Source of the DNA: Symbiobacteriaceae bacterium
GTDB taxonomy: Bacteria > Bacillota_E > Symbiobacteriia > Symbiobacteriales > Symbiobacteriaceae
Assembly: GCA_027356675.1 (NCBI GenBank)
Contig: DAHVXO010000326.1
Span: 1 to 23,993, forward strand
Reading direction: 5' to 3'
Length of the DNA stretch: 23,993 nucleotides
Numbering within the stretch: the first letter of the stretch is position 1; the number at the start of each line of letters is the position of its first letter. A program made the translations under genes and the position numbers. Below the pieces are notes generated by a model that searched no databases, was not told where the DNA came from, and was given only the letters and a program-made list of their open reading frames with translations. Shown in pieces: positions 4,473 to 17,385 of the stretch.

Positions 4473-4604
4473 CTACAGGCCGATCTTCAACGCATCCAAC
4501 GGCACCCCGGGCAAGACCCCGAGCCACAGCGTGCCGACGATCGCGATCACCAGCACCGCCAGGACGCCGTACTGCACCACAGCGGGTGAGAATGCCAGCG
4601 CCCC
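4473..4604 (-). other. In-frame continuation of nuoN beyond a TAA stop
   Basis: Immediately after the nuoN TAA (4607-4605) the same frame continues for 43 sense codons to a TAG at 4475-4473. It encodes GALAFSPAVVQYGVLAVLVI, then a Gly-Thr-Leu-Trp segment and LPGVPLDALKIGL. This has the shape of the normal NuoN C-terminus: a SPA-type linker, a final membrane helix with a GT-L-LG motif, and a short amphipathic tail. With it, NuoN would be 497 codons long including the position now occupied by TAA, a usual family length. A hairpin terminator follows the TAG rather than the TAA. Confidence 0.75.
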
Positions 4605-5966
4605 TTACGAGGCGGTGTCTGCCACCGAGTGCCGCACAGCGGCTTCCCGAGCCGACTTCTTCAACATCGTCCCAATGACCCGCAGATACACATAAGCCGA
4701 GATGCCCGTCGACACGATCAGACCGACCAGCAGGGTCCAGCTGTTGGCCGGCATGGTAGCTGCCGCACCCACAGCCGCCTTCGCCAGCAGGAACTTGCCG
4801 ATGAACCCGCCTGTGGGCGGCAAGCCCGCCAGACCGAACATCAACAGCGACAGCGATGCCGCCAGCCACGGCCGCCGGTAGTAGAGCCCTTCATACGATG
4901 CAAGGTCGCTCCCGGCCTCCCCACCCGCCTCCAGTAGCGTGATCACAGCGAAGATGCCGAACGCCGTGAACCCGTAGGCCGCCATGTAATAGGCAGCGGC
5001 CGTCAGGCCGTCAGCAGCCAGGGCCGGAATCGCCATCACCAGATACCCGGCATGGGAGATGCCCGAGTACGCCATCAGCCGCTTCAGATCGTTCTGCCAC
5101 ATCCCGACCGTGGCGCCCCAGAGCATCGAGAGCGCCGCCAGGACCGACAGCGGCAGCAACCACTTCGCAGCGGCGGAACCCGCCGGCACCGTGGCCATTA
5201 GCAGCCGCGCCAGCATCGCCAGCGCCGCGCCCTTGGTGCCGACCGCCATAAAGGCGGTAGTCGCCGTCGGCGCGCCCTGGTACACATCAGGCGCCCAGGC
5301 ATGAAACGGCACCAGCGCCAGCTTGAATGCAAACCCCACCAACGCCAGCGCCATGCCGGCTTTGTAGTAGAGCTCCCCGCCGTGAATCGGCGTTCTGGCG
5401 ATCACGCTGAGGTCCATGCTGCCGGTCACGCCGTAGATCAGCGCAAACCCGAACAGGATGAACGCCGATGCCACGGACCCAAGCACAAAATACTTCAGGG
5501 CAGCTTCACGGGCGTTCGGATGCTCCGGGTCAAAGGCCACGGCCACATACAGCGCCAGCGAGAGCAGCTCGAGCCCGAGGAAGACCGTCATCAGGTTGCC
5601 GGCGGAGACCATCATGAGCATGCCCATGGCCGCCCAGAGGATCAGCGCCAGATACCCCGACTTGTCAAGCTCGGTGCGAATCGTAGACAACAAGACCGTC
5701 AGGAAGACAGCGCCCACCAGCACGGCGCCAAAGACCACGGCCAGCTGATCCATCAGCATGGCCCCGCCATAGCCGGTGAGGTCCTTGCCCCATAGCGGGA
5801 TCAGGTAGTACCCCGCCAGTGCAGCCGAACCCAGACCGGCCACGTGCCACCAGCCATGAATCGACTGCGCGGGCAGGATCAAGTCGAGTAAGAGAATCAC
5901 CAACGCCCCGGCGGCCAGCGCCAGGAGCGGCGCCGCGACGGTGAAGTTGACCGGATCAAAGGTCAT
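4605..5966 (-). CDS. nuoN: NADH-quinone oxidoreductase subunit N, prematurely stopped
   Basis: 453 residues as read, versus about 480-500 in the family. NuoN is one of three antiporter-like proton-channel subunits of the complex I membrane arm. Identity is clear from KYFVLGSVASAFILFGFALI, VPFHAWAPDVYQGAPTATTA and AGLPPTGGFIGKFLLAKA. The TM5 Glu (in LGLELLSLALY), the TM7 Lys (FKLALVPFHAW), the TM8 Lys (GTKGAALAM) and the TM12 Lys (FIGKFLL) are all present, so the channel core is intact. The ATG at 5966 has AAGGAGG at ideal spacing. The frame ends at an in-frame TAA followed by 43 codons of typical NuoN C-terminus. This could be a real nonsense mutation removing the last helix, readthrough, or a sequence error. 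NuoN follows nuoL directly, with nuoM missing between them. Confidence 0.93.
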   Translation of the reverse strand: MTFDPVNFTVAAPLLALAAGALVILLLDLILPAQSIHGWWHVAGLGSAALAGYYLIPLWGKDLTGYGGAMLMDQLAVVFGAVLVGAVFLTVLLSTIRTELDKSGYLALILWAAMGMLMMVSAGNLMTVFLGLELLSLALYVAVAFDPEHPNAREAALKYFVLGSVASAFILFGFALIYGVTGSMDLSVIARTPIHGGELYYKAGMALALVGFAFKLALVPFHAWAPDVYQGAPTATTAFMAVGTKGAALAMLARLLMATVPAGSAAAKWLLPLSVLAALSMLWGATVGMWQNDLKRLMAYSGISHAGYLVMAIPALAADGLTAAAYYMAAYGFTAFGIFAVITLLEAGGEAGSDLASYEGLYYRRPWLAASLSLLMFGLAGLPPTGGFIGKFLLAKAAVGAAATMPANSWTLLVGLIVSTGISAYVYLRVIGTMLKKSAREAAVRHSVADTAS

Positions 5967-5997
5967 GCGAGCCCCTCCTTCTCAGTCCACCGGGGTC

Positions 5998-7932
5998 TTA
6001 TACAAGTGTAATGAAGTATGCCAGCATCAGCACGAGCCCGCCGAACATGTAAATCGCATACCGGGGAATATGGCCGGTCTGCACCTGCCGCAGACTGGCG
6101 CCAACGGCGGCTGCGGTCCGTCCGAAACCATCCACGATCCCGTCGATCACCTTGCCGTCGCCGATCGCCGCGACGAAGCCGGCTGTTGCCAGCAGCGGTT
6201 TGACGACCAGAAAATCGTAGAGGGCATCGAAGTAGAACATGTTGACCAGGATGCCGCCACGGACGCTGGTATCCCGTTCGGCATTACGGCGGACGCCGTT
6301 GGTGCCGTATAGGTACCAGGCCAAATAGCCACCGACCAGCGCCATGGTGAGCGTCACACCAGCCACCAGGTAGTTGATGCTCTCGGGCTCCAGCTCCAGG
6401 CCCGCGAAGGCGGGTTTAAGAAACGTAAGCTGCCAGTGCGGGAAGAAGATCAACCCACCGACCACCGAGAGGGCTGCCAGGATGCCCACGGACCACTTCA
6501 TGGCCCAGGGGGTCTCATGTGCGTGATCGTGACCCTGTGCGCCGTGGGAACCGTGCGCATCGTGACCGTGGTCCGTTCGGGTGGCTGAAGCCCGCTTCTT
6601 CGCCAGCGCCTTGACCGCGGGCGCCCAGGGCGAGCCAAAGAAGACCAGGCTGATCAGGCGCACGTTGTAGAACGCCGTCACGCCAGCCGCCAGGATGCCG
6701 ATGATGAAGAGTGCCATATTCTTGTGCATGGCCGCCAGCAGGATCTCGTCCTTGGAGAAGAAGCCAGCGAACGGGAAGATGCCGATGAGCGCCAGCGCCC
6801 CGATCGCAAAGGCCCAGAAGGCAAACTTGTCCTTCTGGTACAGCCCACCCATATGGCGGATATCCTGGTCGCCGGCGTAATGGTGAATCACGATACCGGC
6901 GGTAAGGAAGAGGGCCGCCTTGAAGAAGGCGTGGGTCAGGAAGTGGAAGTCGGCCGCAACGTAGGCTTGCAGGCCGTTGCCCATGAACATGTAGCCAATC
7001 TGCGAGAGCGTCGAGAACGCCAGGACCCGCTTGATATCATTCTGCCCTGCCGCGACCACGGCGCCGAAGAGCGCACCGATGCCACCGACCCAGGCCACCA
7101 GAGCAGCCGCAGTCTCCGCATTCTGGTAGATCGGCCAGGCCCGGGAGACCAGATAGACGCCTGCCGTCACCATCGTGGCGGCATGGATCAAGGCGGAGAC
7201 CGGGGTCGGTCCTTCCATGGCGTACGGTAGCCAGGTGTGCAGCGGAAACTGCGCCGACTTGGCGATGGCGCCTACAGCAAGCAACACGCCGATCAGGTTG
7301 AGCACCTCGTTCCCGGTGCCGGCCTTGATCCCGGCGAAGACCCCATCAAACGAGAGCGTCCCGTAGGTCTTGTAGATAAAGGCGATACCTGCAACCAATC
7401 CCACCTCGCCGATGCCATTCATGATGAAGGCCTTCATGGCAGCGGCGGTGGCGGAGGGCTTTTTGTAGTAGAAGCCGATCAACATGTACGAGGCCAGACC
7501 TACGTTTGCCCATCCTATCAATAGACCGACGAAGTTGTCCGAGACCACCAGCAGGCTCATGGCGAAGATGAAGAAGTTCAGCTGTGCCATAAACCGCCCG
7601 TAGGATGGGTCATCGATCATGTACCCAGTCGAGTACAGGTGGATCAGGAAGCCGCAACCCGTGACCACCAGCATCCACCAGATGGAGAGGCTGTCAGCCA
7701 CGAACCCGAAGTTACTCATGAGCGGGCCCAGGTTCGTCACCGTGGCCCGGATGGGCACACCGGTCTGTAGAAATTGTGCGAAAAGCACCAGGGTCATCGC
7801 AAACGTGGCGAAAACGGAGCCGCTGGCCACCCAGGACACCATGGTCTTCGACCAGGTGTTCCGGAAGGAGCCGACGACTGCCGCGCTCAGAAGCGGCAAT
7901 ACGACCAGGGCCGTCAACATCCAGGCGCTCAC
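5998..7932 (-). CDS. nuoL: NADH-quinone oxidoreductase subunit L, with atypical TM5 site
   Basis: 644 residues, a normal NuoL length. It is the distal antiporter-like subunit that contributes a proton channel and the long lateral helix. Identity is shown by QFPLHTWLP, then EGPTPVSALIHAATMVTAGV, and by THAFFKAALFLTAG. Lysines matching the TM7 (AIAKSAQFP) and TM12 (FFKAALF) sites are present. Unusually, the TM5 motif normally WEGVGL(C/A)SY reads W141-Ala142-Asn143-VGLASY, so the conserved acidic residue is missing. Nearby the usual Arg-Val-Gly-Asp reads Gly173-Ile-Gly-Glu176, and WLPDAM reads WLPYAM. A His-rich loop at about 454-473 is common in NuoL proteins. The start is a GTG at 7932 with a GGAAGGAAG element upstream; an ATG four codons later is an alternative. 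Confidence 0.95.
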   Translation of the reverse strand: MSAWMLTALVVLPLLSAAVVGSFRNTWSKTMVSWVASGSVFATFAMTLVLFAQFLQTGVPIRATVTNLGPLMSNFGFVADSLSIWWMLVVTGCGFLIHLYSTGYMIDDPSYGRFMAQLNFFIFAMSLLVVSDNFVGLLIGWANVGLASYMLIGFYYKKPSATAAAMKAFIMNGIGEVGLVAGIAFIYKTYGTLSFDGVFAGIKAGTGNEVLNLIGVLLAVGAIAKSAQFPLHTWLPYAMEGPTPVSALIHAATMVTAGVYLVSRAWPIYQNAETAAALVAWVGGIGALFGAVVAAGQNDIKRVLAFSTLSQIGYMFMGNGLQAYVAADFHFLTHAFFKAALFLTAGIVIHHYAGDQDIRHMGGLYQKDKFAFWAFAIGALALIGIFPFAGFFSKDEILLAAMHKNMALFIIGILAAGVTAFYNVRLISLVFFGSPWAPAVKALAKKRASATRTDHGHDAHGSHGAQGHDHAHETPWAMKWSVGILAALSVVGGLIFFPHWQLTFLKPAFAGLELEPESINYLVAGVTLTMALVGGYLAWYLYGTNGVRRNAERDTSVRGGILVNMFYFDALYDFLVVKPLLATAGFVAAIGDGKVIDGIVDGFGRTAAAVGASLRQVQTGHIPRYAIYMFGGLVLMLAYFITLV

Positions 7933-7959
7933 GTCCGGTTCACTTCCTTCCAGGGGTGG

Positions 7960-8268
7960 CTAGTGCTTGAGGTCCGCAACGTCATCGATGTCGGCATGCT
8001 CCCGCTTGCGGAAGAGCAGGACGATAATGGCAAGACCGATGGCGACCTCGGCGGCAGCCACGGTGATCACCAGGAAGGCCATCACGTGGCCGTCCAGGTT
8101 CCCGTGCTGCCGTGCGAACGCAATAAAGAGCAGGTTCGCGGCGTTCCACATGATTTCCACGCTCATCAGGATTGCCAGCGGGCTGCGCCGCACCAGGACC
8201 CCGATGCCGCCCAGGGCGAAGAGGATGGCGGCCAATGCGACGAAGAGGTTCGAAGATACGGTTGGCAT
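7960..8268 (-). CDS. nuoK: NADH-quinone oxidoreductase subunit K
   Basis: 102 residues, the standard NuoK length, with three membrane helices. NuoK lies between NuoJ and NuoN in the membrane arm and forms part of the proton path. Both conserved buried glutamates are visible, one in ILMSVEIMWNAANLLF (TM2) and one in VAAAEVAIGLAII (TM3). The C-terminus is a short charged cytoplasmic tail (RKREHADIDDVADLKH). The ATG at 8268 is preceded by AAGGAGGAGG. The gap to nuoJ is 16 bases and to nuoL 27 bases, consistent with one operon. Confidence 0.96.
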   Translation of the reverse strand: MPTVSSNLFVALAAILFALGGIGVLVRRSPLAILMSVEIMWNAANLLFIAFARQHGNLDGHVMAFLVITVAAAEVAIGLAIIVLLFRKREHADIDDVADLKH

Positions 8269-8284
8269 ATGTCCTCCTCCTTCC

Positions 8285-8791
8285 CTAAGCCTTCTGGCGA
8301 CCGACGAGGATGACGACCCCGATTACGGCCACCATGAGGATAAACGCCGTGAGTTCAAAGGGCAGTACATGAACCGTGAGCAGTTCCGCACCGAAGTTCT
8401 TCACGCTGCCGAAGGACTCGCTGATTGAGGCAAACGAACCGCTCGCCTTGCCCACCAGGCCCACCAGTGCCAGCATCAGCAGCACGGCGCCGCCCACGGC
8501 GTATCCGGCGATGCGGTGGGGTGAGACCAGGCTCTGGTCCCGCTCGATCGGATCCTTACGGGCGGTCAGTAGGGCGATGACGAAGAGGAACAGGATCATG
8601 ACCGCGCCGCCGTAGACGATCAACTGAATCACGGCCATGAACTCAGCGGAAAGGCTCAGGTAGAGCACCGCCAGGCCGATGAAGTTGAGCACGGTGGCGA
8701 GGACCTGGTGAACCGGATAGCGGGCCACGACCACGCCCAGAGCGCCGGCGAGTGCGATCAGTCCTGCGATCACGAATACGGCGAGATTCAT
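8285..8791 (-). CDS. nuoJ: NADH-quinone oxidoreductase subunit J
   Basis: 168 residues with five membrane helices. NuoJ sits between NuoA/H and NuoK, and its TM3 pi-bulge region is important for coupling. The diagnostic block IQLIVYGGAVMILFLFVIALL contains the conserved Tyr-Gly-Gly-Ala-Val stretch. The loop between TM4 and TM5 is Ser/Gly-rich. The ATG at 8791 overlaps the nuoI stop (ATGA) and has only a weak binding site, so translation is probably coupled to nuoI. Confidence 0.96.
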   Translation of the reverse strand: MNLAVFVIAGLIALAGALGVVVARYPVHQVLATVLNFIGLAVLYLSLSAEFMAVIQLIVYGGAVMILFLFVIALLTARKDPIERDQSLVSPHRIAGYAVGGAVLLMLALVGLVGKASGSFASISESFGSVKNFGAELLTVHVLPFELTAFILMVAVIGVVILVGRQKA

Positions 8792-9273
8792 GGCTTCACC
8801 GCCTGACGCCCTGCGAAGGGCGGATAGACGTTCATCGGCACCGTGAAGGCCGACGGCGCCTTGTTCACCAGCTGATCCTTCTGATAGATCAGCGACTCAC
8901 GTGAGAAGTTGGAGAGCTCGAACTCCTGCGTCAGGTGCAGGCAATCGGTCGGGCACGCCTCTTCGCAGAGGCCGCAGAAGATGCAGCGGAGCAGGTCGAC
9001 CTGGTACTTGTAGCCGTAGCGTTCGCCAGGGCTGTGCGGATGGGCCGGATCGTTCTCCGCCGCCAACACTGTGATGGCTGCCGCAGGGCAAGCCACCTGG
9101 CAGAGCTCGCAGCCCACGCACATCTCCAGGCCGTTCTCGTAGGTCCTCAGTTCATGCCGACCGTGGTAGCGACGGCTCCGCGGCTTCTTGACCTCGGGGT
9201 ACGAGATCGTCACCTTGGGCCGGAAGAGGACTTTCAGCGTGGCGCCGAGTCCCTTTGCAATCGCCATAAACAT
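8788..9273 (-). CDS. nuoI: NADH-quinone oxidoreductase subunit I (2 x 4Fe-4S)
   Basis: 161 residues. NuoI carries clusters N6a and N6b that pass electrons from NuoG towards N2 in NuoB. Both ferredoxin motifs are complete: CVGCELCQVACPAAAI and CIFCGLCEEACPTDCL, each CxxCxxC plus CP. The N-terminal segment (VLFRPKVTISYPEVKK) is the usual membrane-surface anchor region. The ATG at 9273 has a near-perfect AAGGAGGT eight bases upstream, which decides the start over the longer frame to 9375. That longer frame would overlap nuoH extensively. Its 3' end overlaps nuoJ by four bases. Confidence 0.97.
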   Translation of the reverse strand: MFMAIAKGLGATLKVLFRPKVTISYPEVKKPRSRRYHGRHELRTYENGLEMCVGCELCQVACPAAAITVLAAENDPAHPHSPGERYGYKYQVDLLRCIFCGLCEEACPTDCLHLTQEFELSNFSRESLIYQKDQLVNKAPSAFTVPMNVYPPFAGRQAVKP

Positions 9274-9293
9274 GCTGCCGTACCTCCTTCCGA

Positions 9294-10271
9294 TCAGGCC
9301 TTGGGAGCCAGGAGCGCCACATAGACCGCTGTGCCGACCAGATTCAAGGCTGCCAGCGGGAGCATAACCTTCCAACCGAAGCTCATCAGCCGGTCATAGC
9401 GCATCCGGGGCCACGTCGCCCTAACCCAGATAAAGACGAAGATCATGAGGCAGACCTTCAGGACGAAGGCCACCACGGGCGGAATGAACTGGAGGAAAAA
9501 GATCCGGTTCCAGCCGCCCAAATACAGGAGAGTGATCAGCGAGGCCATGTTGAGCAGGTGGACGATCTCGCCCAGGAAGAAGAGGCCGAACCGCATGCCG
9601 GCGTACTCTGTATTGTAACCGCCGACCAGTTCGGTTTCCGCTTCGGGAAGGTCGAACGGCGTGCGGCTGGTCTCCGCCAGCGCCGCCATGAAGAAGACCA
9701 CGAAGCCGAGGATTTGCGGGATGATGTTGTACAGACCGTGCTGCGCCGTCACGATGTCGGTCAGCCGGGTCGAGCCTGCCATCAGAATGACGCCGATCAG
9801 CGCCATCCCCATGGCCAATTCGTAGCTGATCATCTGAGCGGTTGCGCGCATGGAGCCTAGCAGTGCGTACTTGGACTGCGACGCCCAACCGCCGAGGGCC
9901 ACGCCGTAGACAGAGAGCGAGCTCAGAGCCAGCATCACCAGGATACCGGCGTTGGGGTCTGCCATGGACCACCCGGGTCCCCAGGGGATGACCACATAGA
10001 TCGAGAGGGCCGCAAAGAAGGCGATCATCGGGGCGAGCCGGAAGACCAGGTTGTCGGCGTCACGCGGGATGATGTCTTCTTTAAAGATCATCTTCACCAC
10101 GTCGGCGATGGGCTGAAACACGCCCCAGGGTCCGACCCGATTGGGACCCACCCGCATCTGAAAGTACCCCAGGAGCTTGCGCTCCATGAGCAGTTCCACC
10201 GCAGCACTTAGAAGGATGACCGTGGCGAGGAGGAGCGCCTTTACGACAACCCAGAGGATAGTGCTTAGCAT
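9294..10271 (-). CDS. nuoH: NADH-quinone oxidoreductase subunit H
   Basis: 325 residues, eight membrane helices. NuoH forms the heel of the membrane arm and, with NuoB and NuoD, the quinone chamber and the entrance to the proton E-channel. Conserved blocks are MERKLLGYFQMRVGPNRVGP near the N-terminus, KEDIIPRDAD, and TSRTPFDLPEAETELVGGYN, with the acidic E-channel residues retained. It starts one base after the nuoG stop (TAACATG) with GGAGGTGG inside the nuoG end. It ends 20 bases before nuoI. Confidence 0.97.
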   Translation of the reverse strand: MLSTILWVVVKALLLATVILLSAAVELLMERKLLGYFQMRVGPNRVGPWGVFQPIADVVKMIFKEDIIPRDADNLVFRLAPMIAFFAALSIYVVIPWGPGWSMADPNAGILVMLALSSLSVYGVALGGWASQSKYALLGSMRATAQMISYELAMGMALIGVILMAGSTRLTDIVTAQHGLYNIIPQILGFVVFFMAALAETSRTPFDLPEAETELVGGYNTEYAGMRFGLFFLGEIVHLLNMASLITLLYLGGWNRIFFLQFIPPVVAFVLKVCLMIFVFIWVRATWPRMRYDRLMSFGWKVMLPLAALNLVGTAVYVALLAPKA

Positions 10272-10272
10272 G

Positions 10273-12782
10273 TTAGTCCGCCACCTCCACGGCCAGCTTC
10301 GCCACGGAGACGGCTACCGGAGCGCCGCCCACAGGGATGCCGGATGTCAGCAAGTTGACCGGTGCGCTACTGAGGCGCTTGATTGCCTGGATGGTGCCGG
10401 GAACGACGCTGCGTTCGACCATGACGGAGACCGTAATCCGAGCCTCGCCCACGCCGAGTTCCACCTGCTCGCCGGCGAGAAGCCCGAGGCGGGCGGCGTC
10501 AGCGGGGTGGATCAGGGCCACGGGCTGGGGCAGCACATGATTGAAGGCTGCGTCAAACTGGGCGGTGGAGCCGCCTGCGTAGAGCCGGTCAACCGGCACG
10601 AGGAGCATCCCCTCACCCGCCGGCGCAGCCAGGCCCGTAACCGCCGGCAGCACCGACGCCGGCGCGCCCGCCAGCACCGTGCCATCTGTCAATTTGGACG
10701 CTAGCTTGGCAATCTCCCAGGACGTCTCCTGCGGCGAAGCCGTCAGCCGCAAGCCCATGGCTGCGGCCAACGCCACCAGGATGTCCCCGTCAGGCTGGGC
10801 CGCGCCCTCGGGCTTCTTGGCCACCTTGACGCTCTGCACCAGGCCATCCAGGGCGGTATAGGTACCCGCCTTCTCACCCATGGCCGCCGCCGGCAGGACC
10901 ACATCCGCCTGCGCTGCCGTCTCATTGAGGAACAGGTCGATGGCGACCACGAAGCTGCCCCTGAGGGCAGCGGCCGCCAGTTTCCGGTCGGAATAAGTGT
11001 TAACAACGTTGGCCCCCGCCAGCAGCAGGGCCTTGATCTGGCCCTCAGCCGCCGCCTTCAGCATGGCCCCGGTCTCCAGGCCCGCATCCCAGACCAGATT
11101 CCGGGTGCCCCAGGTCTGCATGAGCGCCTCACGGGCCCGGGTCTCGGTCACTCCAGCCAGACCGGTCAGGAACCCGGGCAGCACGCCCATGGCCTCCGCA
11201 CCGCGGCTGTTGTTCTGCGCACCCGGAATCAGCACATGCACCGACCGTCCAGGAGCGGTGGCCGTTCCGACCTTTGCCGTTCCGACCTTTTCCGTACCGA
11301 CCTTTTCCGTACCGACCCTTTTAAGCGCCCCCGCCAGTTCGAGCACGGCGCGGCCCACACCGGCGTCATTCCCACCCCAGACCACGGCAACCTTGGTCAC
11401 CCCGGTCAGGATCTCAGCCAGCTTGGTCAGCGCCACCGCATCGGCAGCGCTCGCAGCACCCTTCTTACCAGACACAGCAGCAGCCAGCGCCAACAAAGCA
11501 CCAGCCACCTCACCAGGCTTCAACTGAACCCGCGCATGCCGTCCCCGGTACTTGGGCATCACGGAACCGACCACGGCGATCTTGGCCAGCTTCCGGTCGG
11601 CCATGCGGCGAATCCGCAAGTCGAGCACCGGGGCCGTCTCCGCCGGATCCACATCCACAATCAAGATCGCCCCGGCATCGGAAAGATCGGTCTGCCGCCC
11701 GGGGAAGGCCCCCAGCGACGCCACGATCTGATCCCCCACCCGGTGATCGATGTTGTTCGTCCTCAGGGCGACCCGGGCGAACTTCTGCAGCAGATAGGCT
11801 TCCTCGTTGGTCAGCTTGCCGCCGCCGATGACGCCAAAGCCGGCGCCGCCTACCGCAGCCTTGATCTCCTTGAACTTGCCGGCGACCACCGACAGCGCCT
11901 CGGTCCAGGACACAGGCACAAGGGCCCCGTCCTTCTTGACCAGCGGTTGCGTTAACCGCTGATCGTCTTGCACATACTGGTAGTTGAAGCGCCCACGGTC
12001 GCAAAGCCACCCGGTGTCGACGGCCGGATTTTCCCGGGAAGTCAGCCGGAGCAGCCGCCCATGCCGGTACTCCTGATTCACGTTGCAGCCCACGGAGCAT
12101 CCGGTACAGATCGACTCTACCTTCGCCAGGTCCCACGGACGAGCCTTGAAGCGATACAGCTCGCTGGTCAGCGCACCCACCGGGCAGAGCTCGATGGTAT
12201 TGCCGCTGAAGTAGGAATCGTACCGCTGCCCTTCCATGGTCGTGACGTGGTTGTTGTGGGCGCGCTCCGCAATGATCAGGGTCTGCTCAGTCGCGACCTC
12301 ATCATCGAAGCGAGTGCAGCGCCGGCACAGAATGCAGCGCTCGTTATCGAGCACGATGAAGTTGCCCAGGTCCACAGCCTTGTCCTTATGGATCTTGGGG
12401 TCCACGAGGCGGCTGGTACCCGCGCCGTGCTCGAGCGTCAGGTCCTGCAGGTCGCACTCGCCGCCCTTGTCGCAGACGGGGCAATCGAGTGGATGATTCA
12501 GCAGCAAAAACTCCAGGGCCCCCTTGCGCAGGTCCGCAACCTGAGCGCTCTGGGTGGTGACCACCATGCCATCGCCCACCTGCGTGGTACAGGCCGCTTG
12601 GGGCTTGGGAATCTTCTCGATCTGAACCAGGCACATGCGGCAGACGCCGGCGGGATCGAGCTTGGGGTGGTAGCAGAAGACGGGAATCTCGACCCCCGCC
12701 AGCTTCGCCGCCTCCACCAGGTTTGTGCCCTTGGGCACCTGGACAGTGCGGCCGTCAATCGTCACATTCACCAGGGGCTGGC

Positions 12783-12786
<4 letters not shown>
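10273..12786 (-). CDS. nuoG: NADH-quinone oxidoreductase subunit G
   Basis: 837 residues. This large peripheral-arm subunit holds a chain of Fe-S clusters and a molybdopterin-oxidoreductase-like domain without catalytic role. Visible ligands are the 2Fe-2S site FCYHPKLDPAGVCRMC, the His-ligated site HPLDCPVCDKGGEC, the 4Fe-4S site CILCRRC with ELCPVGAL, and the extra N7 site CTGCSVGC with LCDRGRF. The N7 cluster occurs only in some bacteria. The C-terminal beta-barrel (HPADAARLGLLAGEQVEL) is present. Around residues 489-510 a GTEKV-type repeat is encoded by four 15-bp tandem units. The ATG at 12786 overlaps the nuoF stop (ATGA) and has AAGGAGGTG upstream. Confidence 0.96.
11261..11320 (-). 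repeat. Four tandem 15-bp units inside nuoG
   Basis: On the plus strand the units are GCCGTTCCGACCTTT twice (11261-11275 and 11276-11290, identical), then TCCGTACCGACCTTT (11291-11305) and TCCGTACCGACCCTT (11306-11320). The unit is a multiple of three, so copy number can change without breaking the frame. It encodes about four repeats of Val-Gly-Thr-(Glu/Ala)-Lys in the molybdopterin-like half of NuoG, followed by Thr-Ala-Pro-Gly, probably a surface loop. Confidence 0.9.
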
Positions 12787-14060
<1,274 letters not shown>

Positions 14061-14076
14061 GCTGTTGGTGCCTCCT

Positions 14077-14757
14077 CTACTCCTGCTCCGACTTCGCTGC
14101 GGGCTCAGGTGCGGACTCAACCGCCGCCGCCGTCTCCATCACGGGCGCCTGGAACCCGGACCACTCCGCCTGGCTCGCCCCACCCATCAGCGGGATTTTC
14201 TCCAGGAAAGCATCGGGACCCTCGCCACTGCGCAGCGCTGCGACCAGCGCATCGAACTTCGCCGGTGTCATCTTCACGGCGTATTCCGTATTCACGTGGA
14301 TCACCGGCGCCAGGTCACAGGCCGCCAGGCACTCCGGCGTCACTTCGAGGGTAATCAACCCATCAGGCGTGGTCTGCAGGTTGCCAATCCCCAGACTCTG
14401 TTTGATATGCGCCTCCAGCGCCCGACCGCCCCCCAGCAGGTGGCAGCACATCGAGCCGCAGAGCGTGATCATGTACTGGCCCACCGGATGCCGGTGGAAC
14501 ATCGCATAGAACGAGCAGACCGAGTCCACGTACCCAGGGGATACCCCGACGATCTCAGCGATCGCCTCCATGTCGGAGATGGCCACGTAGTGCCCCTCGC
14601 GCTCGCGCATCGACAGATGCAGCAATGGCAGTACCGCCGACTTCTCCCGTCCCTCGGGATAGCGCGCGATGATCGCGTCGACCTCGTCCTTGCACCGCTC
14701 CGGCCACGTCGGGGCCGGCACCGCTGTGATGATGATCGACTTGGCCTCCTCAGACAT
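14077..14757 (-). CDS. nuoE: NADH-quinone oxidoreductase subunit E (2Fe-2S)
   Basis: 226 residues, longer than the usual 160-180. NuoE binds cluster N1a beside the FMN in NuoF. The four ligands are visible as LCGSMCC (first and last Cys; the middle Cys is an extra thiol where Ala is usual) and ECLAACDLAPV. The thioredoxin-like fold spans about residues 80-190. The last 45 residues are Ala/Glu/Pro-rich, including a METAAAVESAPEPAAKSEQE ending, and probably disordered. The ATG at 14757 shares a base with the nuoD stop (TAATG) and has GGGGAGGT upstream. Confidence 0.95.
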   Translation of the reverse strand: MSEEAKSIIITAVPAPTWPERCKDEVDAIIARYPEGREKSAVLPLLHLSMREREGHYVAISDMEAIAEIVGVSPGYVDSVCSFYAMFHRHPVGQYMITLCGSMCCHLLGGGRALEAHIKQSLGIGNLQTTPDGLITLEVTPECLAACDLAPVIHVNTEYAVKMTPAKFDALVAALRSGEGPDAFLEKIPLMGGASQAEWSGFQAPVMETAAAVESAPEPAAKSEQE

Positions 14758-15956
14758 TACCGGTCCACCTCCCCGAAGACCGGGTCGATCCCGGCGATGA
14801 TGCCCGCCATATCGGAGACGAAATGCCCCTTCAGCAGCTCGGTGAGCGCATAGGTGGCAAAGAAGCTAGGCGGTCGCACCCGCACCCGCATGGGCCGGTT
14901 GCCGCCGTCTGAGACCACGTAGAAGCCCAGTTCGCCACGGGGAGACTCGACGGCGTGGTACACCTCGCCGGCAGGCACGTTGAAACCTTGCTGCACCAGC
15001 TTGAAGTGATGGATCAGTGCCTCCATGGACTGCTTGACCTCCGCTTTGGGCGGCAGGACCAGCTTCCGGTCGTCAATCACATACCGGCCATCGGGCAAGT
15101 TAGCGAGCGCCTGACGGACGATCTTCAGGGACTCGTCGATCTCGTCGAAGCGAATCGCCACCCGATCGAAGAGGTCGCCATTGTGATAGACCGGCACCTT
15201 GAAATCGTAGTTTTCATAGCCGCAATAGGGATAGTACTTACGCACGTCATAGTCGGTGCCGGTCACGCGCAGGTTGTGTCCCGTGAGGCCGAGCGAAATC
15301 GCCTTATCGTAGGTGATGACGCCGATCTTCTTGGTGCGGTCCAGGAAGATCGGGTTGCCCAGAATCAGGTCCCGCAGCTCCTGCATCTTCTTGGGGGTCT
15401 CACGCAGGAACTTCTCGACCAGTTCTTTGAAGTTGGAAGGCAAGTCCTCAGCGATGCCGCCGACGCGAATGTAGCTCGGGTTCATGCGCTGACCGGTCGT
15501 CTCCTCGAAGATGTCGAGGATCTGCTCACGCAGATCGAAGCCCCAGAAGAACGGGGTGATGGCGCCCAGGTCCAGACCACCCGTGGAGATAAACACCAGA
15601 TGGGATGCAATCCGTTGCAATTCCATCAGGATGACCCGCGCCACTGTCGCCCGTTCGGGAATCCGGTCGGTGATCCCCAACAGCTTCTCAACGGCCAGAC
15701 AGTACCCGCAGTTATTGCCGATCGAGTTCAGGTAGTCCATCCGATCCATGACCGTGTTGGCCTGCTGCCACAGCAGGAACTCGGCGTTCTTCTCGATGCC
15801 GGTGTGTAGGAAGCCCGTCTCCGGATAAGCCGCGGCGATGATCTCGCCTTCGAGCTCCAGCACCACCCGCAGCACGCCGTGCGTCGCAGGATGATGCGGC
15901 CCGATCGAGAGCGTCATCCTGCTCGTGGACGGTTCAGCCCCTTGCGTCTGAGCCAT
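14757..15956 (-). CDS. nuoD: NADH-quinone oxidoreductase subunit D (49 kDa)
   Basis: 399 residues. NuoD is related to the large subunit of NiFe hydrogenases and builds the quinone head-group site with NuoB. The family blocks GPHHPATHGVLRVVLELEGE, HTGIEKNAEF, NYLNS-type DRMDYLNSIGNNCGYC, ESPRGELGFYVVSDGG and the C-terminal DPVFGEVDR are all present. The His pair of GPHHPATHG expected at the quinone site is retained. It is separate from NuoC, unlike the NuoCD fusion of Escherichia coli. The ATG at 15956 follows AGGGTGA. Upstream frame to 16100 overlaps nuoC and is rejected. Confidence 0.97.
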   Translation of the reverse strand: MAQTQGAEPSTSRMTLSIGPHHPATHGVLRVVLELEGEIIAAAYPETGFLHTGIEKNAEFLLWQQANTVMDRMDYLNSIGNNCGYCLAVEKLLGITDRIPERATVARVILMELQRIASHLVFISTGGLDLGAITPFFWGFDLREQILDIFEETTGQRMNPSYIRVGGIAEDLPSNFKELVEKFLRETPKKMQELRDLILGNPIFLDRTKKIGVITYDKAISLGLTGHNLRVTGTDYDVRKYYPYCGYENYDFKVPVYHNGDLFDRVAIRFDEIDESLKIVRQALANLPDGRYVIDDRKLVLPPKAEVKQSMEALIHHFKLVQQGFNVPAGEVYHAVESPRGELGFYVVSDGGNRPMRVRVRPPSFFATYALTELLKGHFVSDMAGIIAGIDPVFGEVDR

Positions 15957-15963
15957 ATTCACC

Positions 15964-16545
15964 CTACTTTCCGTCCTTGGACGATTCCTCGCCGGGAAAG
16001 TCATAATAGCGATTTTCGTCGGCTGGCATCTCCAGGCTAATGAGTGCACGCGGTCCCCGGGTTGGGTAGTCACGCCGCAGCGGGTGTCCTTCCCAGTCAT
16101 CCGGGTTCAAGATTCGCTTGAGATTCGGATGGCCCTTGAAGCGGATGCCGAACTGGTCGAAGACTTCCCGTTCCGCCGGGTCCGCCATGGACCAGAGATG
16201 CGATAGCGTGGGCACCTCGGCCTTCTCCCCGCAGCGCACCCGCACCCGGATGACGCCCAGAGCCGGCAACTGCCGGAAGTGGTAGACCATTTCGAAGCGG
16301 GGCTCACGGTTGGGGTAATAATCCACCGCCGTAAGGTCCACCAGCATGTTAAAACCGCAGCTTCTGAGCCACTGCACGACCTCGACGAGGACATCGGCAG
16401 GAGCCCAGACCTGCGGAATCTGGTCGCCGGTGGCTGCAATGAGGGAGACCTTGCTGCCAAAGGCCTTCACCAAGGCGGGAACAATTTCGGTGTTGACCTG
16501 CTCGCGGGCCTCAATGCCGCGCTGGATCATATCGGTGTTAGGCAT
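15964..16545 (-). CDS. nuoC: NADH-quinone oxidoreductase subunit C (30 kDa)
   Basis: 193 residues. NuoC is a structural peripheral-arm subunit next to NuoD. The signature lies at the C-terminal half: [20 protein letters not shown], then [17 protein letters not shown]. The preceding domain has the usual [23 protein letters not shown] pattern. The ATG at 16545 overlaps the end of nuoB by eight bases; its binding site is an AGGGGGG somewhat far upstream, so coupling to nuoB translation is likely. Confidence 0.96.
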
Positions 16546-17038
16546 GGCGCCGCACCAGCCCCCCCTTCGACTCGCCCCGGGCAATCTTGACGCGGATCTT
16601 CTGGATCGCGTCAATGACGGCTTCGGGGGCCGGCGGGCACCCCGGTACATAAATGTCGACCGGTATCACGTTATCGACGCCCTGGACGACGGCATAGTTA
16701 TCGAAAATGCCGCCCGAAGAGGCGCAGGCGCCCATGGCCACAACCCACTTGGGCTCGGCCATCTGCTGATACACCTGCTTGATCACGGGGACCATCTTAT
16801 TGCACAGACGGCCGGAAACGATCATCAGGTCGGCCTGGCGCAGAGAGGCACGGAAGGCCTCCGAGCCAAAGCGGGCCAGGTCGTATCGGGGGGCCGTCAA
16901 GTTCATCATCTCGATCGCACAGCACGCCAGACCGAACGTCAGTGGCCAGATGGAGTTGGACTGCGCCCAATGCAGGAACCCGTCGACCGTGGTCGTCACA
17001 AACCCGCCGTCCTTGCCCATCAAGTCTGCATTGCTCAT
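16538..17038 (-). CDS. nuoB: NADH-quinone oxidoreductase subunit B (cluster N2)
   Basis: 166 residues. NuoB holds cluster N2, the last Fe-S centre before quinone. The unusual adjacent cysteines are seen in [11 protein letters not shown], and the other two ligands in [10 protein letters not shown] and [10 protein letters not shown]. The conserved [17 protein letters not shown] segment carries SG(R/T) and KM. The ATG at 17038 overlaps the nuoA stop (ATGA). Confidence 0.97.
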
Positions 17039-17385
17039 CGCCAGGAGAAGCCCCCTTTCTTCCAAACATAGGCGTAACCCACGCCAAGCACGATCATGAA
17101 CGTGATCATCTCAATCAGCCCGAAAGCGCCGAGGCTTTTGAGGTTCACGGCCCAGGGATAGAATGAGGCCGTTTCTACGTCGAAAATGACGAAGAGCATT
17201 GCTATAAGGTAGAACTTCACAGGGAACCGGCCCATCAGCGGGGCCGTGGGATGACCAGACTCATAAGGCAGAAGCTTGAAGGGCTCGGGCTTTGAGGGCC
17301 CGAAGCTGGTGCCCAACAGGCTCATGACCACTGGAATCACCAGAGCCACCAGCAAGTAGATCAGCACGGGCACGTATGGATGCAT
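17035..17385 (-). CDS. nuoA: NADH-quinone oxidoreductase subunit A
   Basis: 116 residues, three membrane helices, first gene of the operon. The family signature [13 protein letters not shown] (the TM1-2 loop facing the quinone cavity) and [15 protein letters not shown] with its conserved Asp/Glu pair in TM2 are present. The ATG at 17385 has AAGGAGG seven bases upstream, which decides this start over a 35-codon longer frame that would run through the promoter. About 42 bases separate the predicted transcription start from the ATG. Confidence 0.97.

Follow-up and report, generated by a model that had tools for sequence, protein, structure and literature searches.

A complex I operon without nuoM in a Symbiobacteriaceae bacterium and its relatives, and the nuoM of the relatives' second nuo cluster

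The first 23,993 bases of contig DAHVXO010000326.1 from a Symbiobacteriaceae bacterium (assembly GCA_027356675.1), the whole of which is called the window below, contain an operon for complex I that lacks the gene of one antiporter-like subunit, nuoM. Thirteen nuo genes, ordered A-B-C-D-E-F-G-H-I-J-K-L-N on the minus strand, are flanked by a gene for a D-Ala-D-Ala carboxypeptidase-like protein on one side and a calcium/proton exchanger gene on the other. All 13 proteins are named by NCBIfam models as the expected Nuo subunits, some of them below the curated cut-off. Between the end of nuoL at 5998 and the start of nuoN at 5966 lie 31 bases and no nuoM. The features are the following:

17035..17385, minus strand: nuoA (D79/E81 kept; matches to the NuoA models of NCBIfam fall short of the cut-offs; the longest frame runs from 17490 and the start is probably the methionine of MHPYVPV)
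16538..17065, minus strand: nuoB (NCBIfam and ligand check)
15964..16650, minus strand: nuoC (NCBIfam; start uncertain)
14757..16100, minus strand: nuoD (NCBIfam; start uncertain)
14077..14757, minus strand: nuoE (NCBIfam and ligand check)
12783..14120, minus strand: nuoF (NCBIfam and ligand check)
10273..12786, minus strand: nuoG (NCBIfam and ligand check)
9294..10271, minus strand: nuoH (NCBIfam and residue check)
8788..9375, minus strand: nuoI (NCBIfam and ligand check)
8285..8791, minus strand: nuoJ (NCBIfam and residue check)
7960..8268, minus strand: nuoK (NCBIfam; E36 and E72 kept)
5998..7920, minus strand: nuoL, 640 amino acids (longest frame from 7932)
7507..7509, minus strand: Ala codon that aligns with E. 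coli NuoL E144, in transmembrane helix 5 (TM5; window residue 138)
7405..7407, minus strand: Glu codon that aligns with E. coli NuoL D178 (the M-less NuoL that could be read all have Glu here)
6082..6231, minus strand: HL, the lateral helix of NuoL (51 from anchor to anchor, the three-pump length)
5967..5997, no strand: nuoL-nuoN junction of 31 bases, site of nuoM in other operons (from the open reading frame coordinates and relatives)
4605..5966, minus strand: nuoN, 453 amino acids, ending at an in-frame TAA (NCBIfam; equivalents of E133, K217, K247 and K395 kept)
4473..4604, minus strand: open nuoN tail, encoding the last TM helix, to a TAG (frame reading and alignment)

The ligands and key residues were compared with those of E. 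coli. The cysteine ligands of NuoB, NuoE and NuoF are complete (4/4 in each), as are the ligands of NuoG (16/16, 15 Cys and one His, the N7 site included) and of NuoI (8/8). NuoA D79/E81, the six checked glutamates of NuoH and NuoK E36/E72 are also kept. Every position compared matches, in agreement with what the initial annotation had said of these subunits, and the kept cofactor ligands bear out its view that the electron-transfer arm is intact. With 13 subunits and all tested ligands, the operon is predicted to encode a complex I, in a variant without nuoM.

The nearest other proteins to those of the window (88% identical for NuoL and 90% for NuoN) lie together on one contig of 8,228 bases; the next-nearest are 70% and 74% identical respectively, and names lower in the match lists include Symbiobacteriaceae. 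All genome-level statements made here concern relatives, not the window organism's own genome. The entry to these relatives was a comparison of the window NuoL with 398 sampled genomes of a broad phylum, which led to genome G351 (64% identity). The NuoL of G351, on a contig of 3,566,135 bases, shares 99.7% identity with a protein listed under the name Symbiobacterium thermophilum, and another relative, G463, is Caldinitratiruptor microaerophilus (99.8% identity for both NuoL and NuoN). Antiporter-like genes were searched for with Pfam PF00361 in 28 genomes of three orders, those of G351 (n = 8), G313 (n = 14) and G334 (n = 6). Twenty of these genomes have an operon of the window type (G351, G403, G404, G422, G447, G463, G193, G218, G313, G334, G356, G376, G539, G540, G541, G542, G543, G544, G548 and G549).

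In 19 of these 20 relatives nuoL is directly followed by nuoN, without M; the junction of G543 is not visible. The genes nuoA to nuoG are visible beside the M-less L-N pair in 15 of the 20, the stretch read ending earlier in G447, G542, G543, G544 and G549. A contig break or a missed gene was rejected as the cause, since all 19 visible junctions lack M, and the absence of nuoM from the operon, as initially annotated, is confirmed by these junctions and by the window coordinates. The members of the M-less group diverge down to about 42% identity to the window. In a midpoint-rooted tree of 64 NuoL rows (62 of them different), the M-less NuoL make up one clade of 18 rows (support 100/100), nested in a clade of 35 rows (100/99) of which the remaining 17 are M-containing. 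The tree is without G376, whose C-terminal frame differs, and G544, which is cut at a contig edge; the NuoL of G543 was not read. Since the M-less rows form one clade, nuoM would most simply have been lost once, long ago, and the loss would have persisted. The best explanation is a loss in the common ancestor of Symbiobacteriia- and Limnochordia-type lineages, with retention of the enzyme. Excerpts of a paper on Limnochordia isolates (PMC11456536) report aerobic respiratory growth and mention a proton-translocating NADH:quinone oxidoreductase; no word beginning with nuo was found in that paper. No report of M-less nuo operons was found in the literature searched, an earlier mention in the surveys of Chadwick 2018 or Spero 2015 being possible. 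As far as its excerpts go, PMC13251983 concerns a tunnel in the Francisella NuoM and not a missing gene, and is unrelated.

A second peculiarity lies in NuoL itself. The motif that reads GWEGVG in E. coli, with E144, is GWANVG in the window (residue 138 of 640), and 117 of the 120 listed NuoL rows, among them that of the window, have Ala, Gly, Thr or Ser where E. coli has E144. That NuoL lacks the acidic residue of TM5 is thus no peculiarity of one sequence: the lack, pointed out in the initial annotation, recurs in every readable relative with the operon. Nor does any of the 27 M-containing loci read from the wider clade have the acid (distinct loci in which M is visible; L072 is excluded, as its next gene was not seen). 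Since M-containing relatives are also without it, the loss of the TM5 acid does not follow from the loss of M; it was rejected as a consequence of M loss, and the tree and the gene contexts show that it came first. E144 is plainly dispensable in this clade. Glu144 is kept or lost together with Arg175 (E. coli numbers; 7507-7509 and 7414-7416 in the window): both are present in 51 rows, and the 165 rows without Glu144 are all without Arg175 (216/216 readable rows concordant, from a table of 217 in which some loci stand twice under two names and one is unreadable). This concordance suggests an ion pair. A glutamate described as fully conserved in the excerpts of PMC4938563, which cite loss of activity in E. 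coli mutants, is absent from a large group of NuoL. The place of Asp178 is Glu in 19 of 19 readable M-less NuoL (the window and 18 genomes; G544 is unreadable at positions 144-178) and Asp in all 27 M-containing loci without the TM5 acid. This change is a single event on the tree and as such shows no cause. In the window-type NuoL (L1), the rows that could be read keep Lys229, Lys342 and Lys399. Elsewhere in the window nuoL, the Asp of the WLPDAM motif (7222-7224) is replaced by Tyr, Asn, His, Phe or Val in the listed proteins P0121-P0172; it is Asp in 67 of the 68 other listed NuoL.

The third peculiarity is the in-frame TAA at 4605-4607, which shortens nuoN to 453 amino acids and takes away the last TM helix; 43 further codons are open up to the TAG at 4473-4475. 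The stop noted in the initial annotation is indeed present, but does not recur in any of the 56 aligned full-length relatives (the first 59 listed, less the short P0042 and P0059 and less P0055, whose C-terminus lies in a different frame); that the stop is a trait of the clade was rejected. The tail beyond the stop has a mean similarity of 0.466 to 55 relatives, against 0.436 for the tail of the nearest full-length protein. Since relatives do not share the stop and the tail is undecayed, the stop is of recent date or an error. This one stop in 497 codons probably stems from an error of sequencing or assembly, or from a mutation that arose very recently in the population; against this, the same 453-residue NuoN is also found on a contig of 30,232 bases, hence on more than one contig, the independence of which is not demonstrable. 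Either origin would be without bearing on the type of enzyme, which is a separate question. The NuoN of the window-type operon keeps the equivalents of Glu133, Lys217, Lys247 and Lys395. The three anomalies are not one event, and their combined reading as a reduction of the proton-pumping arm is not supported: the loss of the TM5 acid is older than that of M, and the stop is private.

The relatives have a nuoM elsewhere. The initial annotation had named a nuoM outside the operon among the findings that would count against its reading, and in all 20 relatives with the M-less operon a nuoM, whole or partly visible, lies in a second nuo cluster. This cluster contains A, B, D, H, J, K, L, M and N, with C and I in most cases and no EFG as far as it was read; only its L-M-N part was seen in G543, G544 and G548, and it is spread over two contigs in G540 and G549. 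In G463 and G193, each of which is practically a single contig, the antiporter-like genes number exactly five (L1, N1, L2, M2 and N2), and there is therefore one nuoM in each. Second-cluster genes without the first operon are found in G402, G537, G267 and G538, the last also having a broken M-N pair; the reverse was not seen in the 28 genomes. The rest comprise G546, with a hydrogenase-like locus, and G401, G545 and G547, with no antiporter-like gene. Another genome, G417, has an M-containing NADH-type operon together with a second cluster that has its own M. The second-cluster NuoM (M2) keeps E144, K234, K265 and E407 in 21/21 sequences read. Twelve of 12 loci from genomes with both clusters (L098, L100, L102, L104, L106, L108, L114, L116, L119, L121, L123 and L125) have Glu in their second-cluster NuoN where K247, the TM8 lysine, stands in E. 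coli NuoN; the residue is Lys in the four genomes that have the second cluster only, and also in G351, G403, G404, G422, G447 and G463.

The lateral helix of NuoL was measured as the number of residues from Asp565 to Gly616 in the numbering of the window protein. It is 51 in the window and 50-51 in all 18 genomes with the M-less operon in which it can be read (the exceptions are G376 and G543); in alignment A1, which holds 60 of the 120 listed NuoL, mostly of unknown gene context, it is 51 in 59 rows and 50 in one. The 46 M-containing loci, E. coli included, have 47-53 residues. The MrpA of two-pump Mrp antiporters has 27 (3/10) or 24 (7/10), and the hydrogenase-like locus of G546 (L152, 6399-13752), a two-pump locus with L-like, N-like and B-, C-, D-, H- and I-like genes, has 23. 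In the second cluster the NuoL helix has 76 residues in all 22 readable copies (those of G540 and G543 are cut by contig ends), and 50 in G417. The 76-residue form also occurs in 7 of 20 further loci and in L008, each with a single M gene; outside the window's clade these are L132, L133, L135, L136, L141, L142, L143 and L008. By eye, the additional 25 residues duplicate a segment around the motif FD..VVDGLVN, of which MrpA has no copy, L1 and many three-pump NuoL one and the 76-residue form two, the E. coli protein not being clear. Excerpts of PMC9040806 describe a 26-residue insertion in the NuoL lateral helix of complexes with an extra pump subunit, and record the same insertion in the NuoL of two further complexes from these organisms. 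The steps in helix length are regular, and the match with gene number fails in the M-less L1 and in the 76-residue group, each of which is one gene short.

Several scenarios may explain an operon without M whose lateral brace has the length for three pumps. In the relatives examined, its association with a nuoM that always lies in a second nuo cluster suggests that two enzymes share one pump part. If helix length is a true ruler, then each enzyme has one pump in excess of those encoded by its cluster; the only pump of the middle type in the genomes with five antiporter-like genes is M2, and sharing of NuoM is therefore favoured on that condition. We lean towards it with a little less than even confidence. 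The NuoM of the second cluster would sit between the NuoN and NuoL of the M-less operon, and the borrowed subunit would give a normal three-pump arm. We infer that the protein is shared, that it is placed in this slot, and that the second cluster is also present in the window organism. The partner antiporter encoded elsewhere that the initial annotation had considered is thus the reading that we favour. A broader proposal, which we regard as rather unlikely, is that one nuoM serves both complex I enzymes: it would supply one pump, the middle one, to the NADH-type enzyme and two to the second, whose brace has four-pump length and whose cluster encodes three pumps. The helix would then count pumps in steps of about 25 residues (about 24, 51 and 76) and pump modules would be shared and reusable. 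If true, this would also offer a route by which enzymes with two M subunits (2M) could evolve more than once, by reuse of M first and gene duplication later.

A number of observations weigh against a shared NuoM. M2 is encoded in another operon, which makes stoichiometry harder. The 76-residue helix is found in 30 loci with a single M, so that M would serve twice in them, or else helix length is no valid ruler, and the position of the helix is not fixed by a structure model. Glu at position 178 occurs, among loci of known context, only in M-less NuoL, which hints at a changed neighbour. The median ratio of M2 to L2 distances is 0.88 in genomes with both clusters (n = 16) and 0.84 in those without (n = 10), and M2 accordingly does not appear to be under extra constraint where both clusters are present. 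Finally, the co-occurrence of the M-less operon and the second cluster may be plain common descent.

Alternatively, the enzyme could be a true two-pump complex I in which NuoL docks directly on NuoN, like MrpA on MrpD. This explanation, the main alternative but doubtful as a whole, would be as good as the sharing of NuoM if the helix ruler is loose. The 19 M-less junctions and the lack of extra constraint on M2 fit it, and so does residue 178, where Glu in 19/19 M-less NuoL against 0/27 M-containing loci looks as if the site facing the inner neighbour had been rebuilt; the MrpA-MrpD contact provides a precedent in the excerpts of PMC7419157. Nevertheless, the lateral helix is unshortened (50-51, against 23-27 in two-pump complexes). 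Moreover, the coupling point described in the same excerpts brings Glu(TM5) and Lys(TM7) together with the Lys(TM12) of the neighbour. Here the Lys(TM12) of NuoN would face the Lys(TM7) of a NuoL without the TM5 Glu that MrpA has, a residue that all 19 readable M-less NuoL lack. With fewer protons moved per electron pair, a two-pump arm could run against a higher proton-motive force or on a smaller redox gap; the lower proton yield that the initial annotation envisaged is in this respect possible. It is improbable that a second copy of NuoN fills the slot (N-N-L), an arrangement which would fit both the helix length and Glu at 178, as the neighbour of NuoL would carry Lys and not Glu in TM12, but for which we know of no precedent. 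Decay, with the pump arm being lost from the operon and the nuoN stop as the latest change, would take in the stop, the missing M and the missing TM5 acid, but is hardly credible, and contradicted where the initial annotation had raised it, by conservation across the whole deep M-less clade, the lysines kept in NuoL and NuoN, the complete cofactor ligands and a nuoN tail as similar to relatives as that of the nearest full-length protein.

The window operon can be placed among known systems. It shares with the canonical 14-subunit complex I (E. coli Nuo, Thermus Nqo) the 13 subunits that match family models, the ligands, the key residues of NuoA, H, J and K, the Lys/Glu set of NuoN and the helix length, and differs in the absence of nuoM and in a NuoL without E144 and R175 and with Glu at 178. 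The 11-subunit complex I without NuoEFG has the gene content of the relatives' second cluster, as far as read, whereas NuoE, F and G are present in the window operon. A 2M complex I with a fourth pump subunit was reportedly treated in Chadwick 2018. The relatives' second cluster, with its lateral helix of 76 residues (+25), has the same long type of helix as the 2M enzymes of Nitrospira and Anaerolinea (excerpts of PMC9040806 and PMC7117926), but it has one M gene, and the window operon has a normal helix (51) and no M. The Mrp antiporter (MrpA/MrpD) likewise has two antiporter-like proteins, one L-like and one N-like; it differs in the MrpA helix of 24-27 residues, in the TM5 Glu kept by MrpA (PMC7419157, excerpts) and in having no redox arm, which is present in the window operon. 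The number of protons moved per antiporter-like subunit, and whether only NuoL releases them, are described as unsettled in the excerpts of PMC7419157. A natural enzyme with N and L and either no M of its own or a borrowed one would be a ready-made test of pump stoichiometry, for which Symbiobacterium thermophilum and Caldinitratiruptor microaerophilus are named organisms.

Two minor observations may be added. The listed proteins P0042 and P0132, 65-67% identical to those of the window, are labelled Mycobacterium leprae (metagenome-assembled genome), and the bins are probably mislabelled. In nuoG, at about 11,230-11,310 of the window, there is a short repeat, VGTEKVGTEKVGTAKVGTATAP.

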